From a bacterium (GTDB lineage: Bacteria; SZUA-79; Acidulodesulfobacterales; Acidulodesulfobacteraceae), in contig JAJYJI010000003.1 in the NCBI GenBank assembly GCA_021789605.1, positions 1 through 36,449 of the forward strand: a DNA stretch of 36,449 nt, in the 5' to 3' direction. This document shows, piece after piece, positions 23,605 through 31,052 of this stretch; position 1 is the first letter of the stretch; each line of letters begins with the position of its first letter. A program made the position numbers and the translations under genes. The notes under the pieces are model-generated. The model searched no databases, was not told the DNA's origin, and worked only from the letters and a program-made list of their open reading frames with translations.

Positions 23605-23704
23605 GATTCATAAAATAAATGTTCATAGAATACAGTCTGCATGAATTAAAGTTTTAAAATTGATTTATAAAAGCTTAATGATATATAACGTTATAGAAAA
23701 TGAT

Positions 23705-24727
23705 ATGGAAATCTTAAACGAAATCGATAAAATTCTTGAAGAGGCCGGTAGTTTATTAAATTCCGCAAAAAGCCGGAACGAATTAGACGACAGGTTCAGG
23801 GCGGTTTCCGGTAAAAAAGGCAGGCTGTCGGCTATCTTGCATAACATCGGCTCTTATTCGGCCGAAGAAAAGAAAATTATCGGTTCTAAATCAAACGAAG
23901 TTAAAAATAAAATCGAAGCCGTTTACAAAAATAAAAAAAACGAAATCGAGGCGATAGAACGGCAAAATTTTTTAGATAAATATAAAATTGATTTAACGAT
24001 TCCCGGCGACTACATGGAAAGGCCGCATAAACACCCTATCACCGCAGTCCTGGAAGAGGCCGTAGATTTTTTTTCTTCCATGGGTTTTGAAATCGCGGAA
24101 GGCCCGGAAATAGAAACGACCTACTACAATTTCGATGCGCTTAATATTCCGGCAAATCATCCGGCAAGAGACGTCTGGGATACGTTTTATCTGCTTAACG
24201 GGTTAGTTCCCAGAACGCATACCTCTAGCGTTCAGGTCAGAACGCTCGAAAAAAAATCTCCCCCGTTCAGGATTATCGCTCCGGGAAGATGTTACAGATA
24301 TGAAGCAGTCGATGCTACGCACCTGTTTATGTTTAATCAAATGGAAGGACTGTTTGTGGATAAAAATGTCAGGCTGACGGATTTAAAGGGGATACTCGAA
24401 GAGACGGTAAAGCATCTTCTCGGCGCCAAGAAGACCCGTTTCAGGCCCGCATTCTATCCGTTCGTCGAACCGGGCTTAGACCTCGATATCGAGTGCGTTT
24501 TTTGCGGCGGCAGAGGATGCGGCGTTTGCAAAAATACCGGATGGATAGAGGTTATTCCCTGCGGAATGGTTCACCCCAACGTTTTTAAGTATGCCGGAAT
24601 AGACCCTCTAAAGTTTAGGGGATTTGCATTCGGAATGGGGTTCGACAGGATTGTTATGTTAAAATACAATATTAACGACCTTAGATTGCTTTATCAGGGC
24701 GAACTCGACATATTGAACCAATTTTAA
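23705..24727 (+). CDS. pheS: Phenylalanyl-tRNA synthetase alpha subunit PheS
   Basis: The catalytic alpha subunit of the heterotetrameric PheRS, which charges tRNA-Phe. From the ATG at 23705 it has 340 residues, starting MEILNEIDKILEEA and matching the family's N-terminal coiled coil. In-frame ATG 23678 and TTG 23660 would add 9 or 15 residues outside the family alignment. Class II motifs are the DVWDTF region, the Phe pocket LFMFNQMEG, and motif 3 GFAFGMGFDRIVMLKY. A cysteine-rich insertion (VFCGGRGCGVCKNTGW) is common in bacterial PheS. It normally precedes pheT directly, but here pheT is 3.9 kb away beyond a gene cassette. Confidence 0.97.
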   Translation: MEILNEIDKILEEAGSLLNSAKSRNELDDRFRAVSGKKGRLSAILHNIGSYSAEEKKIIGSKSNEVKNKIEAVYKNKKNEIEAIERQNFLDKYKIDLTIPGDYMERPHKHPITAVLEEAVDFFSSMGFEIAEGPEIETTYYNFDALNIPANHPARDVWDTFYLLNGLVPRTHTSSVQVRTLEKKSPPFRIIAPGRCYRYEAVDATHLFMFNQMEGLFVDKNVRLTDLKGILEETVKHLLGAKKTRFRPAFYPFVEPGLDLDIECVFCGGRGCGVCKNTGWIEVIPCGMVHPNVFKYAGIDPLKFRGFAFGMGFDRIVMLKYNINDLRLLYQGELDILNQF

Positions 24728-26974: not shown

Positions 26975-27541
26975 ATGGCTTTAAAATATAATATAAATAT
27001 CGGAAAAAACGGAGAATATTTTTACATTACGGATTATATGCCAAAAAATAAAAAAGGCGAAAAATCCTCCGAGTTCATAAAATATTCGGAAATGATATTA
27101 AAATATAAAAAAGGCGACAGGCAAACGATATCGTTTTTTACGAGACTGTTAAGTAATATTATATACGATTATTTTTATTTGTATGATTTAATTCTTCCCG
27201 TTCCGCCCAGCAATTCCTATTTAGACGTTTATCCCAACGGCGCCGTCTGCTTATTTCTTTCCGCATTTGGATTAATAGGCACTTTAGACGGGGCCATAGT
27301 ATGCAGTAAAGGCCATAGGCCGGGTCATATCGACGGCATTAGGGCAAAGAAAGACGATTTAAAATATATTTCTTTTAAGGATAGAGGCAATTTCGAATCA
27401 AAAAATATTATAATTTTCGACGAAATTATTACTACTGGAGCAACGTTCGGTTATATTAAAGAAGCTTTATTGAAAAGAGGCGCAAATTCCGTTATAGGCC
27501 TGTTTCTCGGGAAAACGGCCGGCGGCGGTAAATACTTATAA
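26975..27541 (+). CDS. Phosphoribosyltransferase-domain protein (ComF-like or ShosT-like)
   Basis: A 188-residue type I phosphoribosyltransferase fold. The PRPP-binding loop is FDEIITTGAT (148-157; D149-E150 acidic pair) preceded by hydrophobic KNIIIF. An upstream LILPVPPSN corresponds to the early strand and loop of ComF-like enzymes, and GHRPGHIDGIR (113-123) to the flexible-hood region. The N-terminal zinc finger of classical ComF is missing. The stop is 12 bp before dprA with AGAGGA between them, so they form one operon. PRTase plus DprA occurs both in competence and in ShosTA-type toxin-antitoxin/defence pairs. The sequence alone does not choose between them. Confidence 0.8.
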   Translation: MALKYNINIGKNGEYFYITDYMPKNKKGEKSSEFIKYSEMILKYKKGDRQTISFFTRLLSNIIYDYFYLYDLILPVPPSNSYLDVYPNGAVCLFLSAFGLIGTLDGAIVCSKGHRPGHIDGIRAKKDDLKYISFKDRGNFESKNIIIFDEIITTGATFGYIKEALLKRGANSVIGLFLGKTAGGGKYL

Positions 27542-27553
27542 AAGAGGATTCCT

Positions 27554-28549
27554 ATGGATGATTTAATTTGCACCCTCGCGTTAAAAAAAATAAAAGGGCT
27601 TCAAAACCGTCATATATTTTCGTTAATAAACGCGTTTGGAAATCCGTGCGAAATTTTTAACGCAAAGAAGCCGGATTTTATTCGGGCAGGTTTAAAAATA
27701 GAATACGTAAAAATTTTAATTAATCCAAGAATCGTGAGGACCGCGTTTTTCGATGCGATAAAAGAAATAGAGGAGGCTTCTAAAAACGGCATTAAGATTA
27801 TAACATACAATTCGTCGCTCTACCCTTCCAACCTGAAATTCATAAAAAATAAACCCTTGGTTTTGTACTATAAAGGCAAATTAAAAGAAAATTTAAAATT
27901 TGCGGTAGCGATAGCGGGACAAAGGATGCCGCCGGATTATGCCATAAAGCTTACGCAAGAACTTACCGGACAGCTATGCCTGTCGGGTTTTTCGATAATA
28001 AGCGGACTTGCCGCCGGCATAGACGCCGCCGCCCATAAATCGGCGTTAAAAAAAAACGGCTACACCATAGCGTATCTCGGCTCCGGTTTGTTAGAGCCGG
28101 TGTATCCGCCGGAGAACGCAGATATTTATGAGGAAATTTTAGAAAATAACGGGGCGATAGTTTCCGAACTGCCCCTGCACGAAAAAATCGGGTCTAAAAA
28201 TTTAGTCGCAAGAGACAGGCTTCAGTCCGGCACCGGACTTTGCACGTTTGCAATGTCTTCGCCTTTAAAAAGCGGAACTATGAAAACATGCAACTTTTCC
28301 CTAAGGCAAAAAAGGCCGGTATTCGTTCCCGAATACAATAAAGAATTAATGGATTCAAAAGATAATCTCGGCTTAAAATCCCTTTTCGGCAATATCGGCG
28401 TTGCCGGATTAAAATTAAATAATGATTTTTCTTTCGATTTATCCGGGGTCATTGATGAACTAAGGATTGTTTACGATGAAATTTACGGAGAAAAATCCGA
28501 GGAAGAGGCTTTATTGTCCGTCCAGCCTCTATTATTCGATTTAAACTGA
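27554..28549 (+). CDS. dprA: DprA/Smf-family (SLOG-fold) DNA-processing protein, variant type
   Basis: DprA binds single-stranded DNA and loads RecA during transformation. Relatives with altered motifs act as antitoxin or defence factors. The 331 residues include an N-terminal helical SAM-like region (about 8-40), then the Rossmann-like domain with IAGQR (120-124; the canonical form has VGSR), SGLAAGID (150-157), H161, IAYLGSGL with YPPEN, and IVSELP (202-207). Where classical DprA reads RNRxIxGLS, this protein has RDRLQSG (220-226) followed by SGTMKT (240-245). This is the pattern of a distinct DprA subgroup. The C-terminal winged helix is not obvious. It sits in one operon with the PRTase and is inserted before pheT. 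Confidence 0.8.
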   Translation: MDDLICTLALKKIKGLQNRHIFSLINAFGNPCEIFNAKKPDFIRAGLKIEYVKILINPRIVRTAFFDAIKEIEEASKNGIKIITYNSSLYPSNLKFIKNKPLVLYYKGKLKENLKFAVAIAGQRMPPDYAIKLTQELTGQLCLSGFSIISGLAAGIDAAAHKSALKKNGYTIAYLGSGLLEPVYPPENADIYEEILENNGAIVSELPLHEKIGSKNLVARDRLQSGTGLCTFAMSSPLKSGTMKTCNFSLRQKRPVFVPEYNKELMDSKDNLGLKSLFGNIGVAGLKLNNDFSFDLSGVIDELRIVYDEIYGEKSEEEALLSVQPLLFDLN

Positions 28550-28616: not shown

Positions 28617-31052
28617 TTGAAAGTTAGTTTAAATTGGCTCAAAGAATTTGTCGGTTTTAATACGGAAGGAGAAAAGGTAGCAAACCTTTTAAATAATAGG
28701 ACTATGGAGGTGGAAAAGGTTTTCCGCTATTATTCGCAAAAAAAATCTTTCGAAAATGTCGTCGTCGGAGAAATTAAAAGCATAAATGCGCATCCGGCAA
28801 GCGATAAATTTGGCATCGCGGAAGTTTACGGCGGCGAGGCCGTCGGAACGAAAAGAATAGTTTTTACAAAGGAAGGACTTGATATAAAAGTAGGCGAAAA
28901 GCCGCTAATAGCTACAAAAGGAACGGTATTCGAAAACGGAATAAAAATCAGGGATAAAGCAATCTTCGGCATAGTTTCGGAGGCGGCGTTTTGCTCGGAA
29001 AAGGACTTAGGGCTTCAGCTGAACGCATCTTCCATTATAAAATTCCCCGATGAAAAAATAGGCAGAACGGCTTACGATATTTTCGAACTTAACGATACCG
29101 TTTTAGAATTCGATTTAGAGCCTAACAGGCCGGATTTATTCGGCATTCTGGGGTTTGCGTACGAAACGGCCGCGATACTCGGCAAAGACGTCATCCAGCC
29201 TGAAGTTTACAATGATATCGAGTTCGTACCGGGCAGAAATTATTCTTCCAATGAAGAAGAATTAACGGTAAAAGTACAAAATACGGATTTAATTCCGGCA
29301 TATATAGCGGTTAAGATTTCCGGCGTCCAAATTAAAGAATCGAATATGGATATAAAAAATAAGCTTATAAAGGCGCAGATAAGGCCGATAAACAATGTCG
29401 TAGATTTAACCAATATCGTTATGACGGAAACCTCTCAGCCGCTCCATGCCTTCGACGCTTCTAAATTGGGCGGCAAAGCCATATACGCAAGGCTTGCGGA
29501 CGACGGCGAAACCGTGGTTACTTTAGACGGAAAAAAGAGGGAGTTGACGAAAGACGATATCGTAATAGCCGCGGACGATAAAATCGTTGCCCTTGCGGGA
29601 ATAATGGGGGGCGAAAACAGCGAAATAGACGAAAACACTACGGATATTATCGTAGAAGCGGCAAATTTTAACATGTCCAATATAAGGCGGACGTCAAGAG
29701 CGCTTTCGTTAAGAACCGATGCCTCCACGAGGTTCGAAAAAGGACTGAGCCCGCTCTTAAGCATATTAGGAATTAAAAGATTTCTTTATCTCCTTAACAA
29801 ATATTGCGGCGGCGGCTTTAAAATTTCCTGTTACGCTTTCGACCTGAAAGAGCGTGAAAAACCACAAATTTACGAAATTAAAACGGCAGAATTATGCGAT
29901 TTTCTGGGCGACGAAGCGGTAAAAGACAAAACGTCGGTCTTCCTGTCTAAATTAGGATACGAAATTTCGCCGGAAATTTCAAAAAGCGGAACGGATAAAG
30001 AAGTTATTTTCGCAACGCCGCCTTATTTCAGGAGCGACATAACGGAAAGCGTTAATATTTACGAAGACGTATTCAGGATTTACGGATACGACAAGATTAA
30101 ATCTTCAATGCCGGCCGGTATTTTAACCCCTCCCCAAAAAAACCAAAATTTCGAAGCTTCCAGGCTCTTCAAGAATCTGCTGAGATGCAAAGGGTTTACG
30201 GAAATAATTTCTCCTTCGCTTACGGGAGAAAAAGAAATAAAAATTTCAAACGCAGGGAAAAACGGCGTTCTGGAGCTTAGGAATCCTATTTCCGCCGATT
30301 ATGCGTTTTTCAGGGTAAGCATAATTCCGGATATTCTAAAAGCCGTGTATCAAAATTCGAAAAAATATAAAAACATTAAAATATTCGAAGCGGGAAAAAT
30401 TTATAGGAATGGAGCGGCGGACGATTCCTCGGTTGCCGAAACAAATCTTTTATGCGGGGCGGTTTGCTCCGGAATTAAATCCGACAGGCAGGAGCCGGAA
30501 TTTTATCGCGGAAAAGGAGTAGTAGAGTTTTTGCTTAAAGAATCGGGCATAAAAAAATTTGTTTATTCCAGGACGGAAGACGACCCGTTATTTAATTCAA
30601 ACGCTTCCATGGAGATTTCCGTCGGAAAAAATAAAGCCGGTATTTTCGGGGAAATAAGAAGAGAAATACTTGAAGAATTTAAGATTGAAAGCAAAGTTTT
30701 CATATTTGAATTAGATTTGGATTTCATTAAAGATTTTATATCTCTAAGGAAATCGTTTATCCCTCCGAATAAATACCCCGAGATAGAGCAGGATATTTCC
30801 ATCGTCGCAGATTCCGGCATCGCATACGCCAGCATAGAAAAATCTATAAAGGGGTTTTCCGGATTGATAAAAAACGTAAGATTAGCCGACGTTTACAGAG
30901 GCAGGCAGATAGAAGAAGGCAAAATTTCCTTTCTTATAAGATACGATATGATAGCCGAAGACAGGACGCTGACCATGGAAGAGGTAAATTTATTAAGGGA
31001 CGAACTGTTAAAAGAACTTAACGCAGTTTTCGGGATATCGTTGAGAAACTAA
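28617..31052 (+). CDS. pheT: Phenylalanyl-tRNA synthetase beta subunit PheT
   Basis: The beta subunit of PheRS (811 residues, typical length), which provides tRNA binding and editing. It opens with MKVSLNWLKEFV from a TTG start. AAGGAGGA (28601-28608), 8 nt upstream, supports that start. Domains in order: the EMAP/OB-like tRNA-binding domain (about 40-150, HPASDKFGIAEV), B3/4 editing (about 205-380), B5 (about 400-475), a catalytic-like core with YEDVFRIYGYDKI, and a C-terminal FDX-ACB domain (about 717-811, KYPEIEQDISIVA). It is separated from pheS by the helicase/PRTase/DprA cassette, so it needs its own promoter or read-through from the PRTase-dprA operon. Confidence 0.97.
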   Translation: MKVSLNWLKEFVGFNTEGEKVANLLNNRTMEVEKVFRYYSQKKSFENVVVGEIKSINAHPASDKFGIAEVYGGEAVGTKRIVFTKEGLDIKVGEKPLIATKGTVFENGIKIRDKAIFGIVSEAAFCSEKDLGLQLNASSIIKFPDEKIGRTAYDIFELNDTVLEFDLEPNRPDLFGILGFAYETAAILGKDVIQPEVYNDIEFVPGRNYSSNEEELTVKVQNTDLIPAYIAVKISGVQIKESNMDIKNKLIKAQIRPINNVVDLTNIVMTETSQPLHAFDASKLGGKAIYARLADDGETVVTLDGKKRELTKDDIVIAADDKIVALAGIMGGENSEIDENTTDIIVEAANFNMSNIRRTSRALSLRTDASTRFEKGLSPLLSILGIKRFLYLLNKYCGGGFKISCYAFDLKEREKPQIYEIKTAELCDFLGDEAVKDKTSVFLSKLGYEISPEISKSGTDKEVIFATPPYFRSDITESVNIYEDVFRIYGYDKIKSSMPAGILTPPQKNQNFEASRLFKNLLRCKGFTEIISPSLTGEKEIKISNAGKNGVLELRNPISADYAFFRVSIIPDILKAVYQNSKKYKNIKIFEAGKIYRNGAADDSSVAETNLLCGAVCSGIKSDRQEPEFYRGKGVVEFLLKESGIKKFVYSRTEDDPLFNSNASMEISVGKNKAGIFGEIRREILEEFKIESKVFIFELDLDFIKDFISLRKSFIPPNKYPEIEQDISIVADSGIAYASIEKSIKGFSGLIKNVRLADVYRGRQIEEGKISFLIRYDMIAEDRTLTMEEVNLLRDELLKELNAVFGISLRN

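Follow-up and report, generated by a model that had tools for sequence, protein, structure and literature searches.

A ShosA-type DprA gene and a phosphoribosyltransferase gene form a fixed chromosomal locus between pheS and pheT in Acidulodesulfobacteraceae

ShosTA has been described as a system in which ShosT, a phosphoribosyltransferase (PRTase) and pyrophosphatase, perturbs purine metabolism, ShosA binds DNA as the antitoxin and probably brings in additional factors for homologous recombination, and the T7 protein Gp0.7 is a trigger (PMC12593503). Protection against T7 and lambda is conferred by a DprA/PRTase pair from a P2 hotspot, and DprA-like genes also occur in non-transforming bacteria, where their role has been described as elusive (PMC9122126). 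Structures of the Escherichia coli proteins are available for both ShosA (PDB 8zva and 9vzo) and ShosT (8zvb-d, 9w2p and 9w2q).

The window analysed here is a stretch of 36,449 nucleotides from a bacterium of the family Acidulodesulfobacteraceae (GenBank assembly GCA_021789605.1, contig JAJYJI010000003.1, positions 1 to 36,449 of the forward strand). A first-pass annotation, made from the sequence alone, had placed a small PRTase gene 12 bp upstream of a DprA-family gene and had read the pair as resembling ShosTA rather than plain competence. Both open reading frames (ORFs) are present on the plus strand with this spacing (Table 1); in relatives, the two genes range from overlapping to 75 bp apart (with ORF starts picked mechanically). 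The start of the PRTase gene lies 40 bp from that of a divergent UvrD-like helicase gene. Promoter and terminator scans gave nothing above chance level.

Table 1. Features of the PRTase–DprA locus and its neighbours in the window
Feature	Position	Strand	Remarks
pheS	23660..24727	+	left edge of three-gene insertion
Divergent UvrD-like SF1 helicase, 696 aa	24844..26934	-	conserved neighbour, possible third component
Short ComF/ShosT-like PRTase ORF, 188 aa, ATG start	26975..27541	+	lacks zinc ribbon; putative effector/toxin subunit
PRPP-binding loop IIIFDEIITTGAT of PRTase	27407..27445	+	from alignments
ShosA-type DprA-like ORF, 331 aa, ATG start	27554..28549	+	
DprA loop motif LVARDRLQSG (ShosA-type signature)	28202..28231	+	replaces canonical FPxRNRIIxG
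DprA C-terminal clamp-binding-like peptide QPLLF	28523..28537	+	QxxLF in 28/28 relatives
pheT	28617..31052	+	right edge; 67 bp downstream of DprA gene, same strand

We examined 30 genomes of the same lineage (one family, six genera), which are also the whole sample of the phylum. A full PRTase gene is present in 28 of them, and its pairing with dprA is therefore not due to chance; in one more genome the gene runs off the end of a contig, and another genome (65 per cent complete) lacks both PRTase and dprA. Nineteen genomes, the window included, provide context from pheS to pheT. The PRTase–dprA pair lies between these two genes in all 19, and the gene order pheS - uvrD (minus strand) - PRTase - dprA - pheT - rseP - tsaB is found in 18. 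Between close relatives, dN/dS is 0.08–0.26 for the PRTase (0 in one near-identical pair, which has no replacement) and 0.05–0.22 for DprA. Lineage-wide presence, synteny and dN/dS together indicate a long-established, fixed pair that evolves under purifying selection. Unlike a typical accessory defence island, the PRTase–DprA pair is part of the fixed core of the chromosome.

The remaining genome, G018, has the same order from pheS to pheT but lacks uvrD between pheS and the PRTase gene, and we therefore do not count the UvrD-like helicase as an obligate part of the locus. As a conserved neighbour, it may take part in the PRTase–DprA system. Of the genes at the locus, it is the one that differs most among relatives (36–57 per cent identity), and approximately 260 of its N-terminal residues have no match to any family. 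We rejected its assignment to a known defence helicase, as its top PADLOC matches are only generic (RTasHel, GajB). Separately, genome G000 (99 per cent complete) gave no match to MutS domain II (PF05188) or to the Y-family polymerase domain (PF00817).

The DprA-like protein matches Pfam PF02481 with 169 bits (cut-off 29.6) and the dprA equivalog model TIGR00732 with 164 bits, which is below the 191-bit cut-off. Its loop reads LVARDRLQSG in place of the canonical FPxRNRIIxG; the ShosA-type consensus is [FL]V-x-R-[DN]-R-[IL]-Q, versus F-P-x-R-N-R-I-I in canonical DprAs. No Pfam match to the canonical C-terminal winged helix was found, and the tail is predicted to be disordered. These features bear out the first-pass description of this DprA as a variant type. 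In an AlphaFold2 model (pLDDT 90), a helical domain at the N-terminus is followed by a Rossmann core, through which the protein may bind DNA, and a disordered tail; ranked by E-value, ShosA (8zva) is the closest PDB structure and a canonical DprA (3maj) the next.

To place this protein, we reconstructed a DprA phylogeny from which the columns of the diagnostic loop motif had been removed and in which the ShosA-type set came from phages, plasmids and viral contigs. The lineage DprAs and 31 ShosA-type proteins are separated from 37 canonical and other DprAs (bootstrap support of 99 per cent and SH-aLRT of 90, in an unrooted tree). Support for the lineage being sister to the sampled ShosA-type group, as opposed to nested in it, is 75/63, and the lineage DprA may thus be a sister of that group rather than a member of it. 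The tree, the loop motif and the structure search support the assignment of the DprA to the ShosA type. A scan of contigs with the window DprA returned almost exclusively canonical DprAs. The first-pass annotation had proposed that better scores on ShosT and ShosA profiles would point to defence. This comparison turned out not to discriminate, because canonical DprAs score as high or higher on the PADLOC ShosA model (up to 247 bits, versus 201 bits for the window DprA); the model also matches in 10 of 14 control genomes. We set aside the PADLOC scores for ShosA and ShosT as evidence, since canonical DprA and ComF score on these models too.

The origin of the PRTase is less certain than that of the DprA. 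The protein matches PF00156 only weakly (17 bits, under the cut-off), and it carries an intact type-I PRPP loop, IIIFDEIITTGAT (DEIITTG here, DDIITTG in most relatives). The comF model TIGR00201 matches it only from model position 44 onward, and the PRTase thus lacks the zinc ribbon, as the first-pass annotation had noted; in every lineage genome the match starts at position 37 or later. No HAD domain was matched in the 188-aa protein. Such a domain is present on PRTases of comparison loci, including ShosT of phage PfAC02a, and absent from short forms such as that of SopEPhi. The best PDB matches of the AlphaFold2 model (pLDDT 77) are ShosT structures 8zvd and 8zvc, with Helicobacter pylori ComF close behind. 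The PRTase shares an N-terminal Y-x-P and a terminal [KRE]T with short PRTases encoded beside ShosA-type DprAs; only these two characters were used, and the length of the N-terminal segment was dropped because ComF aligns poorly there.

In a first profile comparison, all 28 lineage PRTases scored better on the ShosT-type profile than on ComF. Three Bacteroidota sequences in that profile had been found with the window PRTase or adjoined such a match, and once they were dropped only 2 of 28 lineage PRTases scored better on the ShosT type. We have therefore withdrawn the profile score as a decisive argument. Because the profile freed of this bias does not separate the two families, the PRTase could be either a degenerate ComF or a ShosT. 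No relatives of the PRTase were confirmed in viral contigs.

The DprA ends in QPLLF-DLN, and this clamp-binding-like tail, which has counterparts in many ShosA-type tails, is a new observation. The consensus quoted for proteins that bind the sliding clamp is Q-phi-x-[LM]-[FL] (PMC13254535), in a disordered C-terminal tail. In the lineage, QxxLF occurs near the DprA C-terminus in 28 of 28 genomes, although the linker before it varies. Only 3 of the 28 tails satisfy the strict published consensus, due to a proline at position 2 in most of them, whereas all 28 satisfy the weak form. The lineage's own Pol IV carries QYSLF. The C-terminus of the E. coli ShosA in PDB 9vzo reads QQLSLLGDE, and the chain in 8zva stops short of this segment.

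To examine the tail more broadly, we scanned the last 15 residues of ShosA-type and canonical DprAs under four motif definitions. None of the 89 canonical tails matches under any of them. Among 41 ShosA-type tails, 7 match the strict published definition, 12 match when M or F is also permitted at position 2, 15 match Q..[LMI][FLMI], and 18 match our own, partly post hoc definition, against a background of 2–5 per cent in shuffled tails. With the three proteins in which the motif was first noticed left out, the enrichment has a P-value of 0.002 under the strict definition and of 1e-5 to 1e-9 under the others. Clamp-like ends of E. coli-type ShosA and of many phage and plasmid ShosA-type DprAs include QLSLL, QMSLF, QFSLF, QMTLF, QLNMF and QMSML (seen, for example, in IMG/VR contigs L200, L188 and L192 and in PDB 9vzo). 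The tail is absent in two architectural classes of ShosA-type proteins, the SopEPhi-like and the Pf-like. A subgroup near the Pf phage ShosA (L151, L160, L175 and relatives) shares a GF[DGN]F end in place of a clamp-like tail. Our literature search, which did not cover the primary ShosTA paper, found no report of clamp contact by ShosA. Judged by its residues, the DprA tail resembles a hook for the replication clamp, like that of E. coli ShosA, and it may bind the clamp.

We propose, giving it an even chance, that the locus is a chromosomally fixed and vertically inherited relative of ShosTA, in which a clamp-tethered DprA controls the PRTase, and not a competence pair. In the proposed mechanism, the DprA-like protein, as the counterpart of ShosA, would bind DNA through its Rossmann core, and its QPLLF peptide would dock on the beta sliding clamp, probably keeping DprA at DNA under replication or repair. 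There it would restrain or steer the PRPP-using PRTase, the counterpart of ShosT. Disturbance of the replisome by phage or damage would then release PRTase activity or call in recombination, so that the clamp-tethered DprA would direct the PRTase when replication is disturbed. By analogy with ShosTA, the PRTase may be toxic, DprA may act as its antitoxin, and the pair may serve in defence. A locus that is universal and fixed is, however, unusual for an anti-phage system, and this counts against the proposed explanation.

The same property favours the strongest alternative, to which we assign a substantial probability that falls short of even: a housekeeping pair for recombination and repair, in which an ancestral ComF and DprA were kept after the loss of ComEC and grew to look like ShosTA. 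Such a pair would be a unit of DNA repair or fork rescue, with DprA loading RecA and the PRTase in a non-toxic nucleotide role, and would be neither a toxin system nor a defence system. A universal single copy at one locus, purifying selection and essential genes alongside all fit this explanation, as do the adjoining UvrD-like helicase and the similar scores of the PRTase on ComF. It accounts less well for the DprA, whose grouping with the ShosA type, apart from canonical DprAs, persists when the motif columns are removed. Nor does it readily explain a PRTase that lacks the zinc ribbon and has the Y-x-P and [KRE]T characters common to short PRTases beside ShosA-type DprAs.

A working competence module with an unrecognised DNA-uptake channel is very improbable. 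In other bacteria both DprA and ComF serve in competence, and the window genome has a sole copy of each. The com genes covered by our searches were ComEC, ComF and DprA. ComEC, which a passage of PMC12455585 describes as required by all competent bacteria, was matched by PF03772 in none of the 30 lineage genomes, versus 30 of 31 genomes outside the lineage, and a second model (TIGR00360) found it in none of the 19 lineage genomes searched. Together, the lineage-wide absence of ComEC and its described requirement in competent bacteria remove the plain competence reading. Neither a full ComF nor a canonical DprA was found in the lineage.

The first-pass annotation had listed three observations that would refute its reading: that these are the only dprA and comF of the genome, that the proteins group with competence proteins in a tree, and that com genes are present. 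The first is the case, as our search of the genome found no second dprA or comF-like gene; the other two are not, given the position of the DprA with the ShosA type (99/90) and the absence of ComEC. The second, canonical dprA that it had offered as a pointer to defence does not exist in this genome either, where the window dprA is the sole copy. The annotation was thus right about the kinship with ShosTA and in doubting competence, although the tests it suggested could not show this, and its claim is partly supported: the DprA and the missing ComEC bear it out, whereas by profile the PRTase is not clearly nearer to ShosT. That the pair is a mobile ShosTA defence island lately acquired by this one genome, as the occurrence of ShosTA pairs in phages, satellites and plasmids might suggest, is scarcely credible, being contradicted by the same position across six genera with housekeeping genes on either side and lacking a second dprA in its favour.

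More tentatively, and with rather less than an even chance of being right, ShosA-type DprAs as a class may have exchanged the canonical C-terminal domain for a clamp-binding tail, so that ShosTA-like systems would monitor the replisome; in the lineage, a universal core module would then have replaced the competence ComF and DprA. With only a ShosA-type DprA and without ComEC, the lineage lends itself to studies of the role of the pair beyond DNA uptake, and the conserved clamp-like tail singles out a candidate for the further factor that ShosA probably brings in. Additionally, detection models for ShosA and ShosT cannot separate defence pairs from competence genes.

Among known systems, competence ComF and DprA/Smf share with the window pair a PRTase fold with a PRPP loop and a DprA Rossmann core, but the window pair differs in having no zinc ribbon, a ShosA-type loop, no winged helix and no ComEC in its lineage. 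PsyrTA/RqlHI, in which a RecQ-like helicase–PRTase fusion accompanies a DprA-like protein, likewise brings helicase, PRTase and DprA-like parts together, whereas the window encodes a UvrD-like helicase as a separate gene that is transcribed divergently. A PsyrTA/RqlHI-like locus, with a RecQ helicase–PRTase fusion adjoining DprA, was also seen in a metagenome-assembled genome labelled Candidatus Aquidulcis (L070:2175-5903); its DprA ends in QPRLL, similar to the window DprA, but the tree puts it on the side of the canonical DprAs.

The pairs of the Salmonella phage SopEPhi and of Bacteroidota plasmids (L064, L230) are closer in layout, with a PRTase of approximately 180–190 aa upstream of a ShosA-type DprA, and their PRTases lack the zinc ribbon and carry Y-x-P and a terminal [KRE]T. 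They differ in being located on mobile elements, in a PRTase identity to the window of only 26–29 per cent and, for the SopEPhi-type DprA, in a tail without a clear QxxLF. On the Segatella copri plasmid (L230:3998-6919), the genes for a ShosA-type DprA and a HAD hydrolase are preceded by two PRTase-like genes, of 178 and 232 aa, which flank a single hypothetical gene.

From E. coli ShosTA itself, the window pair differs in that its PRTase lacks a HAD domain, the PRTase gene comes before the DprA gene, the lineage tail is QPxLF rather than QLSLL, and its locus belongs to the fixed core of the chromosome rather than to a phage or satellite hotspot. The two systems have in common a PRTase gene next to a DprA-like gene on the same strand, the DprA loop V-x-R-[DN]-R-[IL]-Q, the loss of the canonical C-terminal domain and a clamp-like C-terminal peptide, and ShosTA provides the top fold matches for both window proteins.
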